Positions 24,632 to 35,918 of a stretch of DNA of 64,000 nt are shown one piece after another (the stretch's first letter is position 1; every line of letters starts with the position of its first letter). This DNA is from Saccharospirillum mangrovi (GTDB lineage Bacteria > Pseudomonadota > Gammaproteobacteria > Pseudomonadales > Natronospirillaceae), in contig NZ_CP031415.1 of assembly GCF_003367315.1 (NCBI RefSeq), positions 3,284,001 through 3,348,000 on the forward strand, written 5' to 3'. The position numbers and the translations under genes were made by a program. A model generated the notes under the pieces. The model saw nothing but the letters and a program-made list of their open reading frames with translations. It searched no databases and was not told the DNA's origin.

Positions 24632-26194
24632 TCAGGCCGCCGCGCGGCGCTGACGCAACATCAGCGTGGGCAGCATGGTCAGCAAAAACAGCAGACCGAC
24701 CAGCATAAAACTGTCGCGATAGCCGTGAATGTTGCTCTGCACGTAGACCATTTGTCCGAGGAAACTCATGGCGCCATAGGCTTGGGCGTCGCCACTCAAA
24801 CCCGCCTGCGTCAGCACGCCCGACACCTGACCGATCAGCTCAGTGGTCGAGCTGTTCGCGGTGGTTTGCGCCGCCGCCAGATGGTGGGCGTACACCTGAG
24901 TGCGAGTGCTCAAATACAGCGTCAGCAGGTTTACACCAAAGGCGCTGCCCAACTGGCGGATAAAGTTGATCGCGCCCGTGCCCTGGCCGACCAGCGCCAG
25001 CGGCAGGGCTTTCAACGCACCGGCGTTGAGGCTGGGCATGATGAAACCCAGGCCGACGCGGCCGATCAGCGTCCACCAGGCCAGTTGCCAGAACGAAGTG
25101 CCGCCATCGATGTTCGCCAGCAAAATCGACGACAGCGCAAACAACGCCAGCCCGGCCAGAATGGTGATGTGCGCCGGCACCCGGTCGGACAAGCGGCCGG
25201 CGATCGGAAACACCACGCCCATCGCAAGGCCGGCCGGCATCAGCAACAGGCCCGACAGCGTTGGCGTGTAGCCCTGAATGGTCTGCACAAAGAGCGGCAC
25301 CAGAAAGGTCGAGCCGAACAGACCGGCGCCGAAAATAAACGAAATCAGCGCGGCCGCAGCGTAGACCGGATGAGTGAACAACTGAAAATTCAGCAGCGGT
25401 GCCGCAGCGGTCAGTTCACGGATAAAGAAGCCCGCTGCAGCCAGAACGGCCAGCGTGAACTCAATCAAAATGATGTCGGACGTCCAGCCGTCGCGCGAAC
25501 CGTTCGACAGCGCCGTCAGCAGGAACACCAAAAAGGCGATCATCAAGCCGAAGCCGACCCAATCGAAGCGTTTGATGGCGTCGTCGGTCATGCGGCCGGG
25601 CATGTACAACAGCCCCATAAAGACACCGGCAACGCAGAACGGCAGTGGCATAAAGAAGATGTAACGCCAGCTGAAGCTGTCGATCATGATGCCGCCGAGC
25701 GTCGGGCCAAGCGCCGGTGCCAGCACCACGCCGATGGCGTAAATGCCCATCGCTGAGCCGCGTTTTTCCGGCGGGAATACCTGAAAGATCGTCTGCATGG
25801 CGAGCGGTTGCAGCACGCCGGCGGCCGCGCCTTGTAAGATGCGCGCCAGAATCAGCACGCCACTGGTCGGTGCCAGACCGCCGACAATCGACGCCGCGGT
25901 AAACAACGCAACCGAAGCCAGATAGGTGAAGCGCTGGCCGAACGAATCGACCATCCAGGCGTTGACCAGCATGGTGCCGGTCATGGCGGCGAGGAAGCCA
26001 GTCGATAGCAACTGCGCCTGATCCTGGCCCATGCCGAGCGCGCCCATGATGTCGGGCAACGCCACGTTGACGATGGTCGCGGTCAGAATGGTGGCGATGG
26101 TGCCCATCATCACCGTGGCCGTAACCAGCCAGCGATAGCCCGGACCGTGGCGTTCGAACCGGGCCGCCAGACTGTCGGGTGCGCCCTTAGCCAC
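24632..26194 (-). CDS. emrB: DHA2-family (EmrB/QacA-type) multidrug efflux permease
   Basis: This is a major-facilitator transporter of 520 residues with about 14 membrane segments. It begins with a short cytoplasmic tail and WLVTATVMMGTIATILTATIVNVALPDIMGALG, the usual EmrB N-terminus. Motif C-like GVVLAPALGPTLGGIMID and the motif-A-like MVDSFGQRFTYLAS are present. It overlaps the HlyD-type adaptor gene by eight bases. With that adaptor, and an outer-membrane channel encoded elsewhere, it would export hydrophobic toxic compounds. The actual substrate is unknown. Confidence 0.88.
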   Translation of the reverse strand: MAKGAPDSLAARFERHGPGYRWLVTATVMMGTIATILTATIVNVALPDIMGALGMGQDQAQLLSTGFLAAMTGTMLVNAWMVDSFGQRFTYLASVALFTAASIVGGLAPTSGVLILARILQGAAAGVLQPLAMQTIFQVFPPEKRGSAMGIYAIGVVLAPALGPTLGGIMIDSFSWRYIFFMPLPFCVAGVFMGLLYMPGRMTDDAIKRFDWVGFGLMIAFLVFLLTALSNGSRDGWTSDIILIEFTLAVLAAAGFFIRELTAAAPLLNFQLFTHPVYAAAALISFIFGAGLFGSTFLVPLFVQTIQGYTPTLSGLLLMPAGLAMGVVFPIAGRLSDRVPAHITILAGLALFALSSILLANIDGGTSFWQLAWWTLIGRVGLGFIMPSLNAGALKALPLALVGQGTGAINFIRQLGSAFGVNLLTLYLSTRTQVYAHHLAAAQTTANSSTTELIGQVSGVLTQAGLSGDAQAYGAMSFLGQMVYVQSNIHGYRDSFMLVGLLFLLTMLPTLMLRQRRAAA

Positions 26195-27284
26195 CGGTGC
26201 GGGCCTCCACTTCGACCATCATGCCCGGCTTCAGCAAACCATCGACCTGATCGATGGCAATGCGCACCGGCAAGCGCTGCCCGACCTTGGTGAAATTGCC
26301 GCTCGGGTTGGGGCTGGGCAGCAGCGCGAATTCGCTGGTCGCCGCCTGGCCGACCGCTTCCACCCGGCCTGTAAACACGCGACCCGGCAGGGCATCGACC
26401 GTCACCTGAACCGCCTTGCCGAGCGTGAAATAACGGATGTCGGTTTCTTTAACGTTGGCATCTACCCGCACCCGCGCCGGATCGTGCACCAGCACCAGAC
26501 GTTGGCCGGGCGATACAAACTCGGCGTTATCGACAAAGATCTGATCGATCACGCCGTTCACCGGCATGGTGACGTTGTGATCGTCCAGCGCCAGTTCCGC
26601 GCGTTGGCGCTGAATGCGCAGTTGGTTTTCTTCCGGTGCCAGTTCGGCCAACTGGCGTTGCAGCACGGTGAGTTCTTCGCGGCTGGCGGTCAGTTGCGTT
26701 AAAGCCGCTTGGGCGCTTTCGACATCGGCCTCGGCGGTCTGCACTTGCTGACGCGCGGTTTCCAGCGCCAACCGGGCCTGATCGAGACTTTCGTGCGTGA
26801 CGACACCTTGCGGTGCCAGGCGCTCGGCGCGCTCATCGTCCGACTCGGCCTGAGCCAGATGCGCACGCGCCGTGGCAAGGTTCGCCTGAGCGGCACGAAT
26901 GCGCGCGCGCTGCGCGTCCAGACTGGCCTGGGTCTGGTGGTCGGTCAGGCTGATGCGCGCTTCCATTTCCTCGCGGCGGGCTTGCAGGCCAGCCAGTTGC
27001 GCTTCCAGGCCGGCAACGTTCAAGGCGCTGTCGCGATCATCAAGCGTTGCCAGCACCGCGCCCGCGGCGATGCGTTCACCCTGGGCGGCGTTCAGGGCAG
27101 TAACACGCCCGGCCACGCGGCTGCTGACCGAAATCATATCGGCGGCAATGCGCGCATCGGCCACGCTGACGTGGGTGAATTGCTGGAACAGCCAATAACC
27201 GGCACCGACAACAACGACAACACCGGCGCTCGCCAACACCAAGGGGCGACGACGCCGAACCGAAACAGTGTCCGCTTCAGACAT
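26187..27284 (-). CDS. emrA: HlyD/EmrA-type membrane fusion protein
   Basis: The periplasmic adaptor has 365 residues. A single N-terminal membrane anchor (LVLASAGVVVVVGAGYWLFQQF) is followed by half of a lipoyl domain, a long helical hairpin of about residues 70-215 rich in Ala, Gln and Arg, and the second half of the lipoyl domain with beta-barrel. LKPGMMVEVEARTGG at the end is typical. It joins the inner-membrane EmrB partner to an outer-membrane channel. It overlaps both neighbours by eight bases in a tight marR-emrA-emrB operon. Confidence 0.88.
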   Translation of the reverse strand: MSEADTVSVRRRRPLVLASAGVVVVVGAGYWLFQQFTHVSVADARIAADMISVSSRVAGRVTALNAAQGERIAAGAVLATLDDRDSALNVAGLEAQLAGLQARREEMEARISLTDHQTQASLDAQRARIRAAQANLATARAHLAQAESDDERAERLAPQGVVTHESLDQARLALETARQQVQTAEADVESAQAALTQLTASREELTVLQRQLAELAPEENQLRIQRQRAELALDDHNVTMPVNGVIDQIFVDNAEFVSPGQRLVLVHDPARVRVDANVKETDIRYFTLGKAVQVTVDALPGRVFTGRVEAVGQAATSEFALLPSPNPSGNFTKVGQRLPVRIAIDQVDGLLKPGMMVEVEARTGG

Positions 27285-27762
27285 GGGGGTTTTCTCCTGA
27301 GGGCAATAACGCCACCTCCTCCAAACGCTCGGCGAGGCGACTAAAAACGGTTAAGCAATGAAGGATGTCTTCCGGATCGATACCGACGAACAATTGCGCC
27401 CGAATGCTGCGCGAGGCCTCCTGTATCTGCGCCAGCGCCGGTTCCGCTTTGGCGGTTAAATGAACCGTTTTGGCGCGGCGGTCGTCCAGCGTCGGGCGAC
27501 GTTCGACCAGCCCTTCCAACTCCAGCGAGTCGAGGCTGCGTACCAGCGTTGGCCCCTGAACGAACAGGCGTTCGGCCAGTTCTTTCTGTCGCAGCGGCTG
27601 TTCGGCGCGCTTGAGCACCAGCAAAATCTGCCAGCGCGATTCGGTCAGGCCGTAAGGCTGCAAGCGCCGGTCGAGCTCGGCGCGCCAGCGACGCGCCACC
27701 TGACCAATACTGCGGCCCAGCTGTTCCTGGAGATCGGCGGGATTTTGGACGGGCTGAGGCAT
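27277..27762 (-). CDS. MarR-family transcriptional regulator
   Basis: This winged-helix regulator of 161 residues is likely the local repressor of the emrAB efflux genes it precedes. The wHTH spans roughly residues 40-105: LTESRWQILLVLKRAEQPLRQKELAERL, then GPTLVRSLDSLELEGLVERRPTLDDRRAKTVHLT with the DDRR wing. A strong dyad lies 45 bases upstream of the start, in the place expected for autoregulation. Loss of binding on sensing a drug or phenolic ligand is the usual MarR mechanism. Confidence 0.9.
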   Translation of the reverse strand: MPQPVQNPADLQEQLGRSIGQVARRWRAELDRRLQPYGLTESRWQILLVLKRAEQPLRQKELAERLFVQGPTLVRSLDSLELEGLVERRPTLDDRRAKTVHLTAKAEPALAQIQEASRSIRAQLFVGIDPEDILHCLTVFSRLAERLEEVALLPSGENPHV

Positions 27763-27912: not shown

Positions 27913-28554
27913 TCAGAATGCCTGGCGAATGCGCGGCAGCAGATCGGCGCTGGCGGTAACTTCACCGAACTCGTAGGCAAAGGTGGTCAGCGCCACCTTT
28001 TGCACCTCGGCGGCGGAGACCGCACCGAAACCCAAATCCGGGTACGGCATGGCGGCGTTGGCGTCGCTGACGACGATCACCTTGTATTCGCGGTGCACCG
28101 CATCGCGGATGGTGGTGTCGCAACAAACGTTGGTAACGGTGCCGCAGACGATCAACGTATCGACATCGTGGGCGCGCAGCACCGTATCGAGATCGGTGTT
28201 GTGGAAACCGCTGTAGAAAAGTTTGTCGACCACCACATCGCCCGCTTTCGGTGTAAGGGCGTCGATAATGTTGACCTGGGGATTGTCGCGCGCCAGCACC
28301 GAATCGACATCCGGATACAGATCGCGCATGCGGCCGCTGTCGCGACCATCGCCACGCAGCACATGGCGCAGATAAATGACCGGCATAGACTGGGCGCGGC
28401 AGGCGTCGGCCAGTGCCTGAATGGGCGCAACAACGGCGTCGGTGGACGGCACATAGAGCGCGCCGTCCGGCTCGCAAAACACCCGCTGCATATCGACGAT
28501 GATCAGCGCCGTGCGTTGTCGAACAATCGGCCAGGGCTGCGCTAATGTCGGCAT
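27913..28554 (-). CDS. Cysteine hydrolase (isochorismatase-like amidase)
   Basis: This protein of 213 residues has the isochorismatase fold. The catalytic triad is visible: Asp21 in LIIVDMQRVF, Lys111 in VVDKLFYSGFHNT and Cys144 in VCGTVTNVCCDTT. An active cysteine means it is an amidase-type hydrolase (relatives act on N-carbamoyl compounds, nicotinamide, ureidoacrylate or biuret) rather than an isochorismatase. I start at MPTLAQPW; an upstream ATG at 28653 would overlap the permease gene. It is the last gene of the seven-gene operon that starts with a 2OG oxygenase, 17 bases after the permease, and likely hydrolyses an amide made from the imported substrate. Confidence 0.82.
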   Translation of the reverse strand: MPTLAQPWPIVRQRTALIIVDMQRVFCEPDGALYVPSTDAVVAPIQALADACRAQSMPVIYLRHVLRGDGRDSGRMRDLYPDVDSVLARDNPQVNIIDALTPKAGDVVVDKLFYSGFHNTDLDTVLRAHDVDTLIVCGTVTNVCCDTTIRDAVHREYKVIVVSDANAAMPYPDLGFGAVSAAEVQKVALTTFAYEFGEVTASADLLPRIRQAF

Positions 28555-28571
28555 AACGTTTCCAACCCCGG

Positions 28572-29504
28572 CTAGATGCGTTCTTCGCGAATAAACGGAC
28601 TGCCCAACGCGCCGGGCTGGCTGTTGCTGTCGCGCTTGCTGAGCGCCACCCACACCATCACCGCCAGCGTAATCAGGTACGGCGCCATAAACACAAAATA
28701 CTGCGACAGCTTGATGCCCGACGCCGCCAACTGCGGAATCAACGCTTCAATGCAGCCAAACAGAATGGCACCGGCCAGCGCTCTCCACGGCGACCAGCGC
28801 GCAAAAATCACCAGCGCCACGGCAATCCAACCGCGACCGCCGGTCATGTTGGCGATCCACAATTTAGTGCTGAGCACAGAAATAAACGCGCCGGCCAGAC
28901 CAATCAACGCACCGCCCATCAAGATGGCCGCGAGCCGATAGCCCAACACCGGAATGCCCGCCGCGTCAGCCGCCTGCGGGTTTTCACCGACGGCGCGCAA
29001 ACGCAAACCGGCGGTGGTGCGATACAGCGCCCAAACACAGAGCAAAAAAATCAGCGGCGTTAAATACACCACGGCGTTCTGAATAAAGATGCGGCCAATG
29101 ATCGGCAGATCAGACAACCCCCACACCGCAAACTCACTCAAGCCCGGCACCGGCTTATTCACCCAGCCAAACTGACTGCCGACCAAGGTGCTCAAACCCT
29201 GACAGAAAAACACCAGCACCAAGCCGGAAATCACCTGGTTGATGCGCATCACCAACACCATCAACGCAAACAACAGCGACACCACGCTGGCGGCGAACAT
29301 GGCGGCCAATAACGCCAGCGGCGTATTGCCCACAGTGAGATAAGCGCCGATGCCAATCACCGCGCCGACCAACATCAAACCTTCGGCACCCAGCGCCAGC
29401 ACGCCGGATTTTTCGATAACGATCAAACCCAACGCCGCCAACGCAAAGGGCACGGCGAACTCGGGCGTGTTGCCCAGCCAACTGCTGATCAAGGTCATGC
29501 TCAA
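28572..29504 (-). CDS. Nucleoside-type ABC importer, permease 2 (NupQ/YufQ-like)
   Basis: This inner-membrane permease of 310 residues, with about 8-10 helices, belongs to the family that pairs with BMP/PnrA binding proteins. Characteristic parts are LIVIEKSGVLALGAEGLMLVGAVIG near the N-terminus, VMRINQVISGLVLVFFCQGLSTLVG, and GLRLRAVGENPQAADAAGIPVLGYR, the EAA-like loop. Known systems of this type import purine nucleosides. It overlaps the other permease by four bases. Substrate here is inferred only. Confidence 0.85.
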   Translation of the reverse strand: MSMTLISSWLGNTPEFAVPFALAALGLIVIEKSGVLALGAEGLMLVGAVIGIGAYLTVGNTPLALLAAMFAASVVSLLFALMVLVMRINQVISGLVLVFFCQGLSTLVGSQFGWVNKPVPGLSEFAVWGLSDLPIIGRIFIQNAVVYLTPLIFLLCVWALYRTTAGLRLRAVGENPQAADAAGIPVLGYRLAAILMGGALIGLAGAFISVLSTKLWIANMTGGRGWIAVALVIFARWSPWRALAGAILFGCIEALIPQLAASGIKLSQYFVFMAPYLITLAVMVWVALSKRDSNSQPGALGSPFIREERI

Positions 29505-30592
29505 TCACCTCCCTGAATGCGACGAATGCGGTGACGAATAAAGAAATCGGACGAGGCCACACAGATCACCAGCACCGCCTGAATCAACTGCACCATGGCG
29601 AACGGAATCTGGTAGAACACCTGCAAGCTGCGACCGGCAACAAACAAGGTCGCAATCAACAAGGCCGCACAGGTGGCGGCGATGGGGTTATTACGCGCCA
29701 GAAAGGCGATCAGGATGCCGGAGAAACCGTAACCGACGTAGAACGAATGCGTCAGTCGGCCTTCCTGCCCGGCGGCGACCATTAAACCGGCAAGCCCGGC
29801 GAGCGCACCGGAAAACAACACCGTCAGAAAAATAATGCGCGCCGTCGGCACCCCAAGCGCCTGCGCCACACGCGGGCTTTGATCGACGAAACGCAGATAC
29901 AAACCCGCACGCGACAAGCTGATAAACCAGAACACCACCAACGCAATGACCAACGCCAACGGGATCGACAAACTGACGCCGCCGAACACATCCGGCAGCA
30001 ATTCAAAGACTTCAAATTTGGGCGAATAAGGAAAGGCGTCTTTCGGATCTTTCCAGGCGCCGTACATTAAATGCAGCAAAAAATTGATGGCGACGTAATT
30101 GAGCATCAGCGTCGACACAATTTCATTCACGCCGAGTTTTAAGCGCAACAAAACCGGCAACACCGCCCACAGTAATCCGCACACCAGCGCCGCTACGATC
30201 ATCAACGGCAAACGCATCGACGGCGTGCCTACTTCCCAGATGGTGATGGCCGTCGCGCCGATGGCGCCGAAAATCATCTGCCCTTCCAAACCCAGATTCC
30301 AAAAGCGCGCACGAAACGCCAGACAACCGGCCAGGCCAACCAGAATGAGCGGCGACGCCTGGAAAATAACCGATTGCAAACTTTGCGCATCGAGCAAGGT
30401 GTAGAGCACAAATTCATTGAGCAACTCGCCAGCCGGAACACCGGCGGCCACCAGAATGGCACCGGAAATAAACAGCCCGACCAGTAACGACACCGCAAGA
30501 ATAATCGCCTGCCAATACCAGGCCATTTGTTGACGAATTTCGAGTGCGAATTTGTAGCTGAGCAGTGGACGTTTTACAGCGGTTTCAAACAT
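29501..30592 (-). CDS. Nucleoside-type ABC importer, permease 1 (NupP/YufP-like)
   Basis: This is the first permease of the importer, 363 residues. It has a cytoplasmic N-terminus, a hydrophobic first helix (IILAVSLLVGLFISGAILVAAG), and FRARFWNLGLEGQMIFGAIGATAI, a strong marker of this permease group. GVNEIVSTLMLNYVAINFLLHLM and GFSGILIAFLARNNPIA are further typical segments. It overlaps the ATPase gene by eight bases and the second permease by four. Confidence 0.86.
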   Translation of the reverse strand: MFETAVKRPLLSYKFALEIRQQMAWYWQAIILAVSLLVGLFISGAILVAAGVPAGELLNEFVLYTLLDAQSLQSVIFQASPLILVGLAGCLAFRARFWNLGLEGQMIFGAIGATAITIWEVGTPSMRLPLMIVAALVCGLLWAVLPVLLRLKLGVNEIVSTLMLNYVAINFLLHLMYGAWKDPKDAFPYSPKFEVFELLPDVFGGVSLSIPLALVIALVVFWFISLSRAGLYLRFVDQSPRVAQALGVPTARIIFLTVLFSGALAGLAGLMVAAGQEGRLTHSFYVGYGFSGILIAFLARNNPIAATCAALLIATLFVAGRSLQVFYQIPFAMVQLIQAVLVICVASSDFFIRHRIRRIQGGD

Positions 30593-32108
30593 GATTCACC
30601 ATGGCCTGACCAATGGCCTGCCGATCGGCCGGCTGAGAAAATTCGGCCACAATGCGGCCAGCGGACATGACGCCGATGCGATCGGCCAGCGCCAGAACTT
30701 CATCCAGATCTTCGCTGATCAGCAACACCGCCGCGCCCTGATCGCGCGCTTTTTTTAAGCGCTCACGCACCGCCAGCGTGGCTTTGACATCAAGCCCACG
30801 GCTGGGGCTGTGCGCCAACACCAGAATCGGTGGTTTATTGAATTCGCGTGCGATAACGAGCTTCTGGGCATTGCCGCCCGAGAGCAGCGCCGCCTTCTGT
30901 TTTTGCGAGCGCACGCCTTGCACATCAAATTGCAGCACGGCGCTTTCTGCGGCTTTTTCAATAGCGCCGCGACGCAACCACCAGACCGAACCGTAAGCGC
31001 CGGAATGAATGTCGCCCATGGCAAAGTTATCGGCTATCGACAACGGCCCGGCCAGCGCCGCACCGTAACGGTCGGCCGGAATAGCGGCGATGCCAAGCTG
31101 GCGACGCCGCGCTGCACTGAGTTCAGACAACGCACCTTCGCCGACCAATTCAACCGTGCCATTAACCGCTTCGGGCAAACCCATCAAGACATTCGCCAGT
31201 TCACTTTGGCCGTTGCCACCAACGCCAGCGATGCCGTAAATCTCACCGCGATGCAGCGTTAAATTCACACCGTTTAATGGCGGATGTCCGCCGCTGACCC
31301 GGCTAACCAGATGTTCAATTTTCAATAAGGCTTCGCCCGGCATGGCGGCTTGTGTTACCGCATCGCTGCGCGCGGCCGATTCACCGACGGTGAGTTTCAC
31401 CAACTCATCCACCGACACCGCATCGGGTTTCAAACGGGTAATGGTTTGGCCGGCGCGCATGATGGTCACCTGATCGGCGTAGCGCAGCACGTCGTTCATT
31501 TTGTGCGTCACTAAAATTACCGCCGCGCCTTCACGCGCCAACCCTTGCACCGTGGTCAGCAAACGTTCGGCTTCGTCTTCGGTGAGTACGGCGGTGGGTT
31601 CGTCGAGAATTAACACTTTGGCGCCGGCGAGCAGCACTTTGACGATTTCGACGCGTTGTTGTTCGGCAATCGACAGCCGGCTGATGCGCGCTTTGGGGTC
31701 GATATTAAAACCGAGTTTTTCCGCCATGGCCCGGATATCGTCCGAGACCTGGCGCAGCCGCTGGCGATGCCAGCCGCTGCGTTGCTGGTGGCCGAGATTG
31801 AGCAAAATATTCTCGGCCACGGTAAAGGGGGTGACCAGCTTGAAGTGCTGGTGCACCATGCCGATGCCGAGCTGAGCGGCCTGCTTCGGCCCTTTCAGCT
31901 CGACGGCATTGTCGTCGATAAACAGCGATCCGCCTTCCGGACCGTAGAGCCCCGCTGCGATGTTCATCAGCGAGGATTTTCCGGCGCCGTTTTCGCCCAG
32001 CAGCGCGTGGACTTCACCCCATTTGGCGGTGAAGTCGGCGTTCACCAGCGCGCGGAAACCGTCGAATGTCTTGCTGACGCCGGTCAGCTGGATCGCGTTT
32101 GGATTCAT
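30585..32108 (-). CDS. Nucleoside-type ABC importer, double ATPase (NupO/YufO-like)
   Basis: The protein of 507 residues has two fused ABC domains. The first is complete: Walker [12 protein letters not shown] near 37-47, a signature RLSIAEQQRVEIVK and Walker [12 protein letters not shown]. In the second the P-loop reads GVGGNGQSE, lacking the GKS/T, with SGGNAQK and LVLAHSPSRGLDV. This one-active, one-degenerate layout is normal for ribose/nucleoside-type importers. I start at MNPNAIQL (32108), which overlaps the binding-protein stop by ATGA; an upstream start at 32150 is less likely. Confidence 0.88.
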   Translation of the reverse strand: MNPNAIQLTGVSKTFDGFRALVNADFTAKWGEVHALLGENGAGKSSLMNIAAGLYGPEGGSLFIDDNAVELKGPKQAAQLGIGMVHQHFKLVTPFTVAENILLNLGHQQRSGWHRQRLRQVSDDIRAMAEKLGFNIDPKARISRLSIAEQQRVEIVKVLLAGAKVLILDEPTAVLTEDEAERLLTTVQGLAREGAAVILVTHKMNDVLRYADQVTIMRAGQTITRLKPDAVSVDELVKLTVGESAARSDAVTQAAMPGEALLKIEHLVSRVSGGHPPLNGVNLTLHRGEIYGIAGVGGNGQSELANVLMGLPEAVNGTVELVGEGALSELSAARRRQLGIAAIPADRYGAALAGPLSIADNFAMGDIHSGAYGSVWWLRRGAIEKAAESAVLQFDVQGVRSQKQKAALLSGGNAQKLVIAREFNKPPILVLAHSPSRGLDVKATLAVRERLKKARDQGAAVLLISEDLDEVLALADRIGVMSAGRIVAEFSQPADRQAIGQAMVNHV

Positions 32109-33193
32109 TGCTGAGTGATCACTCCGTCGACAAACCAATCCATTTGCCACAGATCGCCATCGGACACCGTCTCGCCTTCGGCGGCGATGAGGTTTCCGTT
32201 CTGATCGGACAATGGACCGGCGTAGATGTCGAGTTCGCCATTCAACAGTTTTTCCCGCGCCGCCATGATCTTGGCTTCTTCTTCGGCATCAACGCCTGGG
32301 CCACAGCAAGCGATATCGGTGCCGCCTTCCTGCATCGACAACAACGCGCCATACGGGCTTGGCTGCCAGTCACCGGCGAAGATTTTTTCCAGCTCGGCTT
32401 TCAGGAAACGATCCCACACCCAGACCGACGAACAGACAGTGGCTTCGGGCGCGAACTCACGGAAGTCGCGGTGGTGGCCGGTGCCGCGAACGCCGTTTTC
32501 CTGGGCGACCAATTGCGGCGTCGGGGTATCGACGTGCTGACCGATGACATCTGCACCCTGGTCGATTAACGCCTGAGTCGCAGCGCGTTCTTTGATCGGA
32601 TCGTTCCAGGCGCCGGTGTAAACGACGGTGACGGTCGCATCCGGATTCATTTCACGCGCGCCCATGGCGTAAGCGTTGATGGTCCAGTTCACCTGGCCGA
32701 ACGGGTTGGCGGCAACGAAGCCGAGTTTGCCGGTCGGTGAGGCTGCGCCGGCGGCCATGCCACACAGATATTGGCTTTCGTAAGTACGGCCGTAGAACGA
32801 CAGCAGGTTATCGCTGTTGGTGGTGCCGGAACCGTTCAGGAAAGCGACGTCCGGATATTCTTCGGCCAGCGCGCCAAAGGTATCGGAATAACCATAGGCG
32901 GTACCGATGATGATGTTGGCGCCGCGCTGAATCAGTCGCGCTACAGCCGGGCGAATGGCCGAGGCAGTTTCCGGTACGCTTTCGACGTACTGAATTTTCA
33001 CATCCAGTTCGTCTTCAAGTTTCTGACGGGCTTCATCGAACGCCTGCGTCCAGCCACCGTCATTCGTCGGCGAGATGTACAGCATGGCTATTTTCGGTTC
33101 GCCGCTGAGGCTGAAGCCATCGGCGTAACTCAGACTGACCAGGCCAGCAACGCCAGCCAGCACCAGAGCGGCGCGGGTAATGATGTTTCTCAT
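32105..33193 (-). CDS. BMP/PnrA-family substrate-binding lipoprotein-like protein
   Basis: This periplasmic binding protein of 362 residues has an N-terminal signal peptide (MRNIITRAALVLAGVAGLVSLSYA); no lipobox cysteine is present, so it is probably free in the periplasm. The BMP-family start is clear: KIAMLYISPTNDGGWTQAFD and GANIIIGTAYGYSDTFGALAEEYPDVAFL, then ANPFGQVNWTINAYAMGAREMNPDATV. Characterised relatives bind purine nucleosides; others are uncharacterised. It begins the transport part of the operon, 35 bases after the VOC gene. Confidence 0.86.
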   Translation of the reverse strand: MRNIITRAALVLAGVAGLVSLSYADGFSLSGEPKIAMLYISPTNDGGWTQAFDEARQKLEDELDVKIQYVESVPETASAIRPAVARLIQRGANIIIGTAYGYSDTFGALAEEYPDVAFLNGSGTTNSDNLLSFYGRTYESQYLCGMAAGAASPTGKLGFVAANPFGQVNWTINAYAMGAREMNPDATVTVVYTGAWNDPIKERAATQALIDQGADVIGQHVDTPTPQLVAQENGVRGTGHHRDFREFAPEATVCSSVWVWDRFLKAELEKIFAGDWQPSPYGALLSMQEGGTDIACCGPGVDAEEEAKIMAAREKLLNGELDIYAGPLSDQNGNLIAAEGETVSDGDLWQMDWFVDGVITQQ

Positions 33194-33228
33194 GGGAACG
33201 TCCTTTGGGCGGTTTTTTTTGGGTTGGC

Positions 33229-33615
33229 TTACATCATGTAATTGATTCGGAACACATTGCCTTCCGGGTCCAGCAACACAGCCTGGTACCAGTGGTAATA
33301 CGTTTCGTATGGCTCCTTAATCAAGGTTGCACCCGCAGCCACCGCCTTGGGCACGTACTGATCGACCTCTTCCTTGGAATCGACATCAATATTGAGCAGA
33401 AATTTGCAGCCCTGAGTGTTCGAATATTCTTCCAGGTGCAGCAATTCGTAGGCATCAAGTGCGTTAAAACCGATGCAGGATTTGCCGGTGTTCAGACCGC
33501 GAAAAATCGGCGAACGAATTTCCGGAATTTCTTCAAAGCCAAACACATCGCGATAAAAAACGTTCTGCGCTTCGATGTCTTTGGCAAAGACATTCACGTA
33601 CGACAAGGTGCTCAT
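33229..33615 (-). CDS. VOC-family (glyoxalase/dioxygenase-like) protein
   Basis: The protein of 128 residues has a betaalphabetabetabeta VOC layout: SYVNVFAKDIEAQNVFYRDVFGFEEI at the N-terminus and YQAVLLDPEGNVFRINYMM at the end. The family includes lyases, isomerases, dioxygenases and resistance proteins; the reaction here cannot be told from sequence. Its start shares one base with the stop of the 2OG oxygenase and it precedes the BMP binding protein, so it belongs to the same pathway. Confidence 0.78.
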   Translation of the reverse strand: MSTLSYVNVFAKDIEAQNVFYRDVFGFEEIPEIRSPIFRGLNTGKSCIGFNALDAYELLHLEEYSNTQGCKFLLNIDVDSKEEVDQYVPKAVAAGATLIKEPYETYYHWYQAVLLDPEGNVFRINYMM

Positions 33616-34631
33616 CAGGCCACCTCGGTTTTACTGCCACCAAAGGTGGTTTGTTTGACGAATTTCGATTTCAGATGGTCGCCGGATGACACCGGCGGAT
33701 AGAGCGCCTCGCCGTCGTCACCCAGGCAACTGGGCAGACATTCGATGATGGCGTCGTAGTTCGGCTGGTGGAAAAACACAATCGACTGGCGCGGGTGTTC
33801 GGCGTTGGCATCGAGTGGCGGATTCACGACGCGATGCAGTGTGGAAATCCACTGGTCGTTGGTCCAGCGCATCATCAAGTCGCCGATGTTGACGGCGAAA
33901 CCGCCTTCAACGTAAGGCACATCCACCCAGTCGCCTTTGGCGTTGCACGCTTGCAAGCCACCGGGCGAATCGTCCGGGCGGACGATGGTCAGACTGCCGT
34001 AATCACTGTGCGCACCGGCGCGCATCTGGCCGGGTTCGATTTTGTCGCCGACATTGGGGTAACTGAGTGTGCGCAGCATGGAAATTTCTTTGTCGATTTT
34101 GTCATCGAAAAAGAATTCATCGAGATCCAGCGACAGCGCGAAGATGCGCATCAGCGAACGCGCCAGATCACTCATGGCGGCGAAGTATTCACCGTAGGCC
34201 TGCTCAAAACCGGGAATGTTTTGCGGCCAGACGTTGGGCGCGAAATGCGGCCCGGCGACGTCAAGGCTGTGGTAGTCGTCGTCCGGCACTTCGACCGGGC
34301 CGATGGAAAAGCTTTCTTTCAAATCACCCGGCGCGGCTTCTTCGAGCGAGTACGACAAACTCTCCTCAGCGACGGCGCTGTAACCACGCACCATGTCTGG
34401 ACGCGGCCGGTCGACCTTGCGTTTTTCCGCCATCGGCTGATTAAAAAATTCACGGCTTAACTGATAAACGCGATCGACCAGCGACTCATCAATGCCGTGA
34501 TTAACGATGACCAGAAAGCCGATGTCTTTACAGGCCTGGTCAACCGCTTGCGCAACCTGTTTTTTGCCAGCCTCAGTGCCTTCAAAGTACGGCGCCAGAT
34601 CAATGGTTGGCACGTGCTCTAATTTCGTCAT
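33615..34631 (-). CDS. 2-oxoglutarate/Fe(II)-dependent oxygenase (isopenicillin N synthase-like)
   Basis: This non-haem iron oxygenase of 338 residues has the N-terminal DIOX_N part (VPTIDLAPYFEGTEAGKKQVAQAV, IGFLVIVNHGI) and the jelly-roll core. Iron ligands are His208 and Asp210 (AHSDYGSLT) and His266 (STLHRVVNP). Arg281 and Ser283 (RQS) bind 2-oxoglutarate. I start at MTKLEH (34631); an upstream ATG at 34733 would run through the sigma-54 promoter. It heads a seven-gene operon with a nucleoside-like importer and an amidase, so it probably hydroxylates or demethylates the imported nitrogen compound. Confidence 0.85.
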   Translation of the reverse strand: MTKLEHVPTIDLAPYFEGTEAGKKQVAQAVDQACKDIGFLVIVNHGIDESLVDRVYQLSREFFNQPMAEKRKVDRPRPDMVRGYSAVAEESLSYSLEEAAPGDLKESFSIGPVEVPDDDYHSLDVAGPHFAPNVWPQNIPGFEQAYGEYFAAMSDLARSLMRIFALSLDLDEFFFDDKIDKEISMLRTLSYPNVGDKIEPGQMRAGAHSDYGSLTIVRPDDSPGGLQACNAKGDWVDVPYVEGGFAVNIGDLMMRWTNDQWISTLHRVVNPPLDANAEHPRQSIVFFHQPNYDAIIECLPSCLGDDGEALYPPVSSGDHLKSKFVKQTTFGGSKTEVA

Positions 34632-34717
34632 GGTGCTTGCCCTCTTCTGACCGTTGATCACAGCGAGGTCATGCAACCCATTCCTTTCGGCTGAGTGCTC
34701 GCTCACGGCTGGGCAGA

Positions 34718-34732
34718 GCAGCAAGCGTGCCA
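34718..34732 (-). promoter_or_regulatory. Sigma-54 promoter of the 2OG-oxygenase/importer operon
   Basis: On the minus strand TGGCACG-CTTG-CTGC matches 14 of 15 positions of TGGCACG-N4-TTGC, with GG and GC at the required ten-base spacing. Transcription would begin near 34706, leaving a leader of about 75 bases before the oxygenase ATG. Confidence 0.75.
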
Positions 34733-34783
34733 ATAAATAAATAGCAATAAAAACAACGGGTTATTTTTTATCGACTTATTGAT

Positions 34784-34801
34784 TTGGATCAAATGGTCCA
34801 A
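34784..34801. promoter_or_regulatory. Dyad upstream of the sigma-54 promoter (candidate activator site)
   Basis: TTGGATCAAATGGTCCAA is an 18-base imperfect palindrome (14 of 18 positions symmetric, arms TTGGA/TCCAA). Its position about 80-95 bases upstream of the predicted start fits an enhancer-binding activator. It could also be a GntR-type site. Confidence 0.45.
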
Positions 34802-34934: not shown

Positions 34935-35918
34935 TTAAGCGTCGGCGGGTTTTTCGGCGCAAAGATCCAATAAATACTGCGCCCGCCGTCGTACTTCAGC
35001 GCGCAGTTGCTGCGGTTTACGAATGGTGAAATCGACGCCCAAACCAGACAGGGCGGTGGCGAACCAATCCAGATTAGCGGTGCGTGAATGCACCACCAGG
35101 CCGTCTTCGGTCGGCACATAGACGCCGCCCATCCAACCGAGTTGTCGCGCCGCACTGGGCGACTGAGTGTGCAACAGCACTTCAATATCCCAGGCGCCTT
35201 CCTGGCCCTGAAACAGTCCGGCCAGACTGTCGGCCAGGTATTTTGCTGCGTCGAATTGCGCCGGTCGCAGAAAACTTTTGGGCAATGGATGTACTTGTGT
35301 CACCCGGTCCAACCGAAACGAGCGTAAGTCGTTGCGCAGATGGCAGTGGCCGCTCACGTACCAATAGCCGGCTCGAAACACCAGACCGTAAGGATCGACT
35401 TCGCGCTCCGAAGTTTCGCCATCGACCGTGCAATAACCCAGGCGCACGCTTTGTTGCGCCAGCGTGGTTTCGGTCAATGTCAGGAAAATACCTTCGTCGA
35501 TTTCGGTACGCGCCGGCGCACGCGCCATCTGTGTGGTTTCACCAATGGCACGTACGCGTCGCTTCAAGCCATCGGGCATGACCCGTTCCAACTTGGCGCG
35601 CACGCTGGCCACCGCCACCTCGGTTTCCGCCAGGCCCAATCCACTGGCAGCGACCAGACCCAGCGCCACCGCCAACGTTTCTTCATCGGTGAACATCATC
35701 GGCGGCAGCTTGAAACCCGCCACCAGGGAGTAGCCGCCATCACGGCCGCGTTCGGCGACCACTGGCACACCCAGTTCTTCCAACGCCTGGATATAGCGCC
35801 GCACGGTACGGCCATCGACTTCCAAGCGGCGGGCGATTTCGGCCCCGCTGAGTCGGCGGTGGGTTTGCAACAATTCGAGCAGCGTCAGCACGCGGGTGGT
35901 GGGGCGACTCATGGTCAT
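34935..35918 (-). CDS. HTH/WYL-domain transcriptional regulator (YafY-like)
   Basis: This regulator of 327 residues has an N-terminal winged helix (VLTLLELLQTHRRLSGAEIARRLEVDGRTVRRYIQALEELGVPVVAERGRDGGYSL), a middle region and a WYL domain (YGLVFRAGYWYVSGHCHLRNDLRSFRLDRV). The C-terminal WCX extension follows. WYL domains sense ligands, often nucleic-acid related or small molecules. It lies upstream of the oxygenase operon on the same strand and divergent from a GFA gene; which of the two it controls is not clear. A second ATG six bases downstream is an equal start. Confidence 0.88.
   Translation of the reverse strand: MTMSRPTTRVLTLLELLQTHRRLSGAEIARRLEVDGRTVRRYIQALEELGVPVVAERGRDGGYSLVAGFKLPPMMFTDEETLAVALGLVAASGLGLAETEVAVASVRAKLERVMPDGLKRRVRAIGETTQMARAPARTEIDEGIFLTLTETTLAQQSVRLGYCTVDGETSEREVDPYGLVFRAGYWYVSGHCHLRNDLRSFRLDRVTQVHPLPKSFLRPAQFDAAKYLADSLAGLFQGQEGAWDIEVLLHTQSPSAARQLGWMGGVYVPTEDGLVVHSRTANLDWFATALSGLGVDFTIRKPQQLRAEVRRRAQYLLDLCAEKPADA

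Follow-up and report, generated by a model that had tools for sequence, protein, structure and literature searches.

A seven-gene operon on the minus strand of the Saccharospirillum mangrovi genome (NCBI RefSeq assembly GCF_003367315.1, contig NZ_CP031415.1) very probably has a pyrimidine-related role. We analysed it within a stretch of 64,000 nucleotides (positions 3,284,001 to 3,348,000 of the contig; hereafter the window, in whose own numbering coordinates are given). The operon encodes a 2-oxoglutarate (2OG)/Fe(II) oxygenase (OXY), a VOC-fold protein, an ABC importer formed of a BMP-family binding protein, a double ATPase and two permeases (PERM1 and PERM2), and a cysteine hydrolase (CHY). 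At the level of sequence it has a predicted RutR-type operator in common with the rut operon and a sigma-54 promoter that is conserved, and across genomes its presence goes with that of RutA. We see an even chance that it serves the Rut pathway as an auxiliary arm, taking up a pyrimidine base (most likely thymine) and oxidising it. The link to pyrimidines is strong; the chemistry we infer. An initial annotation of the window had proposed that the operon imports a nitrogen-rich heterocycle or modified nucleoside, oxidises it and frees nitrogen, and the importer, the 2OG oxygenase and the sigma-54 promoter agree with this outline. However, a purine or nucleoside substrate is not supported, since pyrimidines are indicated instead by the RutR boxes, by co-occurrence with RutA and by the linkage to rut operons. 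The annotation had known of no described pathway with this gene set, and our literature search, mainly outside subscription papers, likewise found no published description of the operon or gene set.

Conservation of the block and linkage to rut genes

The locus set comprised the best 80 of 313 OXY relatives, to which counts out of 80 refer; these loci are kin to each other, so the counts are not independent, and two of them (L020 and L021) lie in the same genome. Gene order around the OXY homologues, which the initial annotation had put forward for comparison, showed the genes to be linked elsewhere too, with the complete six-gene block in 67/80 loci and two further loci cut by a contig end. 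A VOC gene (at least 60% identity) comes after OXY in all 80. The ABC genes are absent in 11/80 loci, all from Pseudomonas in the syringae group or close to it, where OXY-VOC is kept and, in 8 of the 11, CHY lies directly before OXY. The oxygenase of a sister species, Saccharospirillum sp. MSK14-1 (locus L004), is 93% identical to that of the window.

Open reading frame calls in the related loci are rough, and neighbour clusters were named from a single representative apiece, with many clusters left unnamed. Among those found repeatedly next to the block, in Marinobacter, Halopseudomonas, Variovorax, P. oryzihabitans and elsewhere, representatives pass the NCBIfam models for RutA, RutB, RutC, RutD and RutF, another passes the cut-off of PRK05365 (malonic semialdehyde reductase, the role of RutE), and a regulator passes PRK15008 RutR and fails TIGR03613 RutR. 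rutA lies within the same locus in 45/80. A YdfG-like reductase, below the equivalog cut-off, follows in 14/80 loci (Marinobacter, Halopseudomonas and kin); a passage of PMC8113886 has malonate semialdehyde reduced by RutE or YdfG in the Rut pathway.

NCBIfam models identify rutABCDEF and RutR in the window genome itself, a single contig of 3.69 Mb, with a candidate RutR box between rutA and rutR. Its single RutA match is at 0.194 Mb, with rutBCDEF behind and RutR divergent, which places this rut operon 0.56 Mb from the OXY operon if the contig is circular. None of the seven operon proteins passes a RutA-F NCBIfam model among the matches tabulated; as the operon encodes no RutA-RutF and rutABCDEF lies elsewhere in the genome, we regard it as auxiliary and not as a Rut operon. 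No RutG match was found in the window genome (E 0.001), with other uracil permease families not searched for; the same search gave matches in 8/14 control genomes, all of them below the cut-off. With no RutG match, the BMP/ABC importer would be a good candidate for pyrimidine uptake.

RutA was over its cut-off in 47/50 OXY genomes, which had been chosen by hand from the 80 loci for lineage spread and also served for the CHY presence counts below, and one more has RutA in two pieces. The background was 27/398 in a sample of Pseudomonadota species, for which the OXY and RutA searches were taken as one draw and the window's own genome was included. OXY (E 1e-90 or better) was present in five of these 398 species, four of which also had RutA (hypergeometric 8e-5, kinship ignored); leaving out the window's own genome, this became 3/4 (1e-3, kinship again ignored). 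Likewise, in a set of 57 relatives the two with RutA over the cut-off were the two with an OXY orthologue, namely the window's genome and the sister species. RutA is commoner than OXY, with 23/27 sampled RutA genomes lacking an OXY orthologue, so OXY is an addition to Rut. G293, the one sampled OXY genome that lacks RutA, carries a 57% homologue around which, over 20 kb, neither a VOC nor an ABC gene was recognised, so this is probably not the same system.

Promoter and predicted operator sites

Upstream regions were scanned with consensus strings that we take to be those of sigma-54, E. coli RutR and NtrC, and were compared with mononucleotide shuffles, which preserve base counts alone. There were 81 upstreams, the 80 loci plus L084 (from the same genome as L004); for the RutR core and NtrC scans one short upstream was left out. 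Two sites lie in front of the operon:

34717..34733, minus strand: sigma-54 -24/-12 promoter element TTGGCACGCTTGCTGCT, 12/13 consensus positions
34784..34801, minus strand: predicted RutR-type operator, dyad TTGGACCATTTGATCCAA with core GACCATTTGATC, like the site between the genome's own rutA and rutR

Scored over 13 fixed consensus positions, the sigma-54 box reaches 12, with 11 for the second-best site in the window. A box of at least 10/13 was found in 78/81 upstreams compared with ~3.5 expected, the three without being L011, L049 and L057. Most lie at -48 to -145; the match in L012 is at an odd distance, -283, and may be due to chance. The sigma-54 promoter of the initial annotation, thought fit for nitrogen scavenging, thus holds in the window and recurs among the related loci.

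The dyad that had also been noted there was confirmed. Its pattern TTGGAYCANNTGRTCCAA has no second exact match across the 3.69 Mb genome, and the genome's own rutA/rutR intergenic region carries GACCATTTGGTC, one base off the dyad core. The core was found at 11 or 12 of 12 positions in 71/80 OXY upstreams, with 0.48 expected by shuffling, and in 39/45 rutA upstreams (a count without shuffle control). This 12-position core was derived from these very loci and chosen after the upstreams had been inspected, which makes the E. coli consensus the fairer test: it was matched at 11/14 or better in 33/81 OXY upstreams compared with 1.2 expected, and within 20 kb around the genome's own rut operon its best match was the rutA/rutR site (11/14). 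From its sequence, the dyad looks like a RutR-type operator common to this operon and the rut operon.

NtrC sites in the window were considered and dropped, as the best reached 8/12, which is at chance level; across the related loci, NtrC-like sites of at least 9/12 were present in 45/80 upstreams compared with ~16.5 by shuffling. Passages of PMC10891134 describe RutR and NtrC sites for E. coli rutAG, and a passage of PMC8443478 reports that a P. stutzeri A1501 ntrC mutant is impaired when thymine, uracil or cytosine, among other compounds, is the nitrogen source, which would bear on the operon if A1501 carries it. Dozens of loci from several genera show the same gene order together with the sigma-54 box and the dyad core, and we consider that these signals exceed chance.

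Operon architecture

The seven tightly spaced minus-strand genes, running from 34631 down to 27913, stand as first annotated with their starts refined, and Pfam bears out the families that had been assigned to all of them.

33615..34631, minus strand: OXY, 2OG/Fe(II) oxygenase, thymine-7-hydroxylase-like (Pfam DIOX_N and 2OG-FeII_Oxy)
33229..33615, minus strand: VOC-fold protein (Pfam Glyoxalase; PDB 2rbb, E 1.8e-59)
32105..33193, minus strand: BMP-family periplasmic binding protein, AtzT-like (Pfam Bmp; AtzT 6pi5, E 8e-56)
30585..32108, minus strand: double ABC ATPase (Pfam ABC_tran, two stretches)
29501..30592, minus strand: PERM1, ABC permease 1 (Pfam BPD_transp_2)
28572..29504, minus strand: PERM2, ABC permease 2 (Pfam BPD_transp_2; start TTG 29504 or ATG 29498)
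27913..28554, minus strand: CHY, isochorismatase-family cysteine hydrolase, optional member (Pfam Isochorismatase; PDB 3irv, E 3.6e-99)

OXY and VOC overlap by 1 base and a 35-base gap separates VOC from BMP, while the ATPase overlaps BMP by 4 bases (ATGA; its likely start, ATG 32108, overlaps the BMP stop) and PERM1 by 8. For PERM2, the TTG start gives a 4-base overlap and the ATG, which stands behind GGAGG, a 2-base gap. CHY likely starts at ATG 28554, 17 bases past PERM2, with GTG 28653 as the alternative.

The oxygenase resembles thymine 7-hydroxylase

The best PDB match of OXY is thymine dioxygenase 5c3p, the Neurospora thymine 7-hydroxylase (T7H; E 1.6e-51), an enzyme type that oxidises thymine to 5-hydroxymethyl-, 5-formyl- and 5-carboxyuracil. 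When the OXY model was compared with solved structures, T7H again came first, both in Foldseek and in VIA-align (Z 27.6, rmsd 3.2, 299 aligned). We mapped the T7H contact residues onto OXY from passages of the T7H paper (PMC4787775), setting the position of E122 by matching KESYEIG to KESFSIG, contrary to the HMMER alignment. T7H residues R190, L192, Y194, H214, D216, Y217, H271, R286, S288 and F292 are identical in 80/80 OXY relatives, and the HxD..H iron site with the 2OG-binding Arg, Ser and Tyr is likewise invariant. Of the pyrimidine contacts, R190, Y217 and F292 are kept while N87 and E122 are replaced, again in all 80, and for this reason we have not filed OXY as a T7H; identity of function between the two, judged on these sequences, is not established. 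A flat aromatic compound is the likely substrate of OXY; that it is thymine is a possibility which we put a little below even.

The importer resembles base-binding proteins

The importer was judged from its nearest PDB relatives and NCBIfam alone. It had been described as nucleoside-like, a label that we would withdraw, as the BMP protein is closest to the base-bound AtzT (6pi5, the best PDB match) and Brucella 3s99. In AtzT, a passage of PMC6834077 has guanine sandwiched by Tyr45 and Trp194, and both of these aromatic positions are Trp (W48 and W196) in 69/69 BMP segments. The AtzT guanine contacts S97, E165 and N169 are A, Q/V and T in the BMP protein, and N218 and N220 are H and D, as in the adenine-bound 3s99.

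The VOC protein and the cysteine hydrolase

The PDB entry matched by the VOC protein, 2rbb, names no function. At the places that we take to be those of the usual glyoxalase metal ligands, it reads ~N8, N75 and R123, which are conserved (by eye, with no structural alignment), and a non-metal binding site is therefore possible.

CHY matched 3irv, an entry that also names no function and to which passages of PMC5806882 assign none either, followed by RutB 8bkd (E 1.3e-21). Its D28, K118 and C151 (numbered from 28575) are near-invariant in 17 linked orthologues and fit the Asp-Lys-Cys triad of isochorismatase-type cysteine hydrolases described in passages of PMC5806882, in keeping with the amidase triad first annotated. 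Several near-invariant arginines are present besides the triad and, speculatively, would suit a ureido substrate more acidic than that of RutB. CHY fails the NCBIfam RutB equivalog cut-off (103.3/377.95 bits) and the curated cut-off for BiuH (93/370 bits). Its earlier standing as a core part of the system was not borne out: an orthologue is linked in 17/80 loci and present anywhere in 25/50 OXY genomes, and we have rejected it as a core enzyme. In the Variovorax and P. oryzihabitans loci a different cysteine hydrolase (~28% identity) comes after PERM2.

Neighbouring genes and related loci

Just upstream of the operon lies a gene for a WYL-domain regulator (34935-35918), which was rejected as the operon's regulator as a match of at least 40% was found in 1/80 loci, that of the other Saccharospirillum. 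After the operon, on the same strand (24632-27762), come genes whose translations look like a MarR-type regulator, an EmrA-like adaptor and an MFS exporter; they presumably make up an efflux operon of their own.

The block is disturbed in Marinobacter salarius R9SW1 (L013:9001-15900), where the BMP, ATPase and permease matches are broken up, as if frameshifted (sequence errors) or decaying. In Corticibacter populi (L049:9001-18984) the main block is succeeded by another oxygenase-BMP-ATPase set, with 37-42% identity to the genes of the window. The window's own genome also holds a second 2OG oxygenase, 35% identical, after a BMP-like protein, a double ATPase and two permeases (L114:9574-15523, ~3.54-3.55 Mb), and oxygenase-permease pairs were seen in L093, L095-L098, L100 and L103, relatives without RutA over the cut-off; the oxygenase family is thus paired with such importers beyond Rut genomes.

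On the alphaproteobacterial plasmid pTM3 of Tistrella mobilis (L142:8761-16848), an OXY-VOC-BMP-ABC block ends with an AMP-nucleosidase-like gene, and RutA was not found in a search that covered the plasmid alone. Oxygenases of ~40% identity on a Rhizobium plasmid (L144:6776-9924) and a Terrarubrum plasmid (L145:6758-9924) have as neighbours a pseudouridine-5'-phosphate glycosidase, a sugar kinase, an enoyl-CoA hydratase and an acyl-CoA ligase, with an ABC importer behind the cluster in Rhizobium. These two clusters are perhaps a variant of a pseudouridine or uracil pathway; a third plasmid (L143) is without the glycosidase and kinase.

Proposed mechanism and alternatives

In the mechanism that we propose, nitrogen shortage, acting through sigma-54 and an activator such as NtrC, together with relief of RutR by a pyrimidine, would switch the operon on. 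The BMP/ABC importer would take up a pyrimidine base in place of the RutG permease, and OXY would then oxidise it, the likeliest target being the 5-methyl group of thymine, which the fungal T7H attacks. The VOC protein may then handle the oxidised product, which would pass into RutA-F as uracil or a 5-substituted uracil and yield ammonia, while the optional CHY might cleave a ureido intermediate that is a poor substrate for RutB. A more specific version, in which OXY and VOC form a bacterial thymine-to-uracil route, with OXY proceeding stepwise to 5-carboxyuracil and VOC, apparently without the usual metal ligands, decarboxylating or otherwise preparing the product for RutA, seems doubtful and on balance unlikely. 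We know of no earlier bacterial thymine 7-hydroxylase pathway; this route, if true, would be the first known to us and would add a new type of VOC-fold reaction.

Several observations weigh against a thymine-oxidising arm of Rut. The OXY model is of moderate quality (mean pLDDT 67.8), and TropC, 6jyv and 3oox came within 1.6 Z of T7H by VIA-align, a P. aeruginosa IPNS-like protein being among the matches in this range. The T7H substrate contacts N87, E122 and N294 have become V, S and Q in 80/80 OXY relatives, although passages of PMC4787775 indicate that T7H N294A retained activity and that N87A and E122A chiefly impaired the later oxidations. The conserved Arg, Tyr and Phe are shared, by eye, with the ethylene-forming-type enzyme 9ovh and are therefore not diagnostic. 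A fungal-type isoorotate decarboxylase, which we take to be a PF04909 member, was not recognised in the window genome: two strong PF04909 matches were rejected because they resemble 4-oxalomesaconate hydratase and 2-pyrone-4,6-dicarboxylate hydrolase, and two weaker ones were not followed. In addition, a passage of PMC7662398 has RutA opening uracil and thymine alike, so that thymine use would not strictly need the oxygenase, which would improve or redirect this use and not first enable it. Concerning uptake, AtzT is weak on thymine (620 uM) and uracil (1600 uM) according to the relevant part of PMC6834077, so membership of the BMP family is no proof of a pyrimidine ligand, and in NCBIfam the importer comes closest to the models of a putative vitamin B6 ABC transporter, none of which it passes, with scores far short of the cut-offs (60/400, 401/670, 148/400 and 170/465 bits). 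Finally, two OXY genomes among the 50, both metagenome-assembled, show no RutA, the window dyad at 11/14 by the E. coli RutR consensus is tied with four other sites in the 64-kb window, and the Tistrella plasmid block closes with its AMP-nucleosidase-like gene.

It is also conceivable, if fairly unlikely, that the importer is a plain uracil/thymine importer replacing RutG and that OXY and VOC act in repair or detoxification on a by-product of Rut and not on the imported base. The lack of a RutG match in the window genome would fit this, as would the 14 loci in which the importer, the YdfG-like gene and rut share a block and the 11 Pseudomonas loci that keep OXY-VOC without the importer; however, T7H is the nearest solved relative of OXY, and the 23/27 sampled RutA genomes without an OXY orthologue mark OXY as dispensable to Rut. 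Pyrimidine nucleosides or C-nucleosides make an unlikely cargo, for which the oxygenase would attack the sugar or a C5 substituent and uracil would be freed for Rut, on the model of the fungal pyrimidine nucleoside 1'- and 2'-dioxygenases. Nucleosides are the usual cargo of BMP importers, and the ~40%-identical oxygenases of the Rhizobium and Terrarubrum plasmids stand beside a carbohydrate kinase and pseudouridine-5'-phosphate glycosidase, with a nucleoside hydrolase also near that of Rhizobium. Against this, the BMP protein is closest to proteins bound to bases, and the recurrent neighbour clusters that were named, many others being unnamed, included neither a nucleoside hydrolase nor a phosphorylase.

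A non-pyrimidine alternative, in the form first annotated or one like it, would have the operon take up a heterocycle such as a purine, methylxanthine, hydantoin, triazine or vitamin B6-like compound and hydroxylate or demethylate it, with CHY as a ureido hydrolase. We judge this reading quite improbable. It could draw on the binding of guanine and hydroxyatrazine by AtzT (reported in passages of PMC6834077), on the vitamin B6 transporter models, even if below cut-off, and on the gene that follows the Tistrella copy, but it leaves the RutR boxes and the tracking of RutA without a place, and all five AtzT guanine contacts listed above are altered, the H and D at 218 and 220 being found in adenine-bound 3s99 too.

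If an auxiliary Rut arm is the right reading, the Rut pathway would gain an oxygenase step along with a binding-protein importer, both present in Saccharospirillum, Marinobacter, Halopseudomonas, Stutzerimonas, Pseudomonas and Variovorax. It could then also account for base uptake in a genome without a RutG match, and would offer candidate substrates for OXY and for the structures 2rbb and 3irv.

Comparison with known systems

CHY is like RutB and BiuH in its isochorismatase family, its alignment with RutB and its Asp-Lys-Cys triad. Unlike them, it is far under the curated cut-offs, and a separate RutB over the cut-off is encoded elsewhere in the genome. The BMP protein has AtzT and Brucella 3s99, both bound to bases, as its best PDB matches and keeps the two-aromatic ligand sandwich of AtzT, but differs from AtzT in the guanine-contact residues S97, E165 and N169. 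Neurospora T7H (5c3o-5c3s) is the nearest solved relative of OXY by both sequence and fold, and the iron site, the 2OG-binding Arg/Ser/Tyr and the aromatic stacking residues are kept. Unlike T7H, with which it shares ~32% identity, OXY has V, S and Q for N87, E122 and N294, and its setting differs from the fungal one in that no fungal-type isoorotate decarboxylase was recognised in the window genome. Compared with E. coli Rut (rutABCDEFG and rutR), RutG was not found in the window genome while rutABCDEF and RutR are present, and the window operon supplies in addition a 2OG oxygenase and a VOC protein, together with a BMP/ABC importer and a second cysteine hydrolase; like E. coli Rut, it has ahead of it a predicted RutR-type operator and a sigma-54 promoter.

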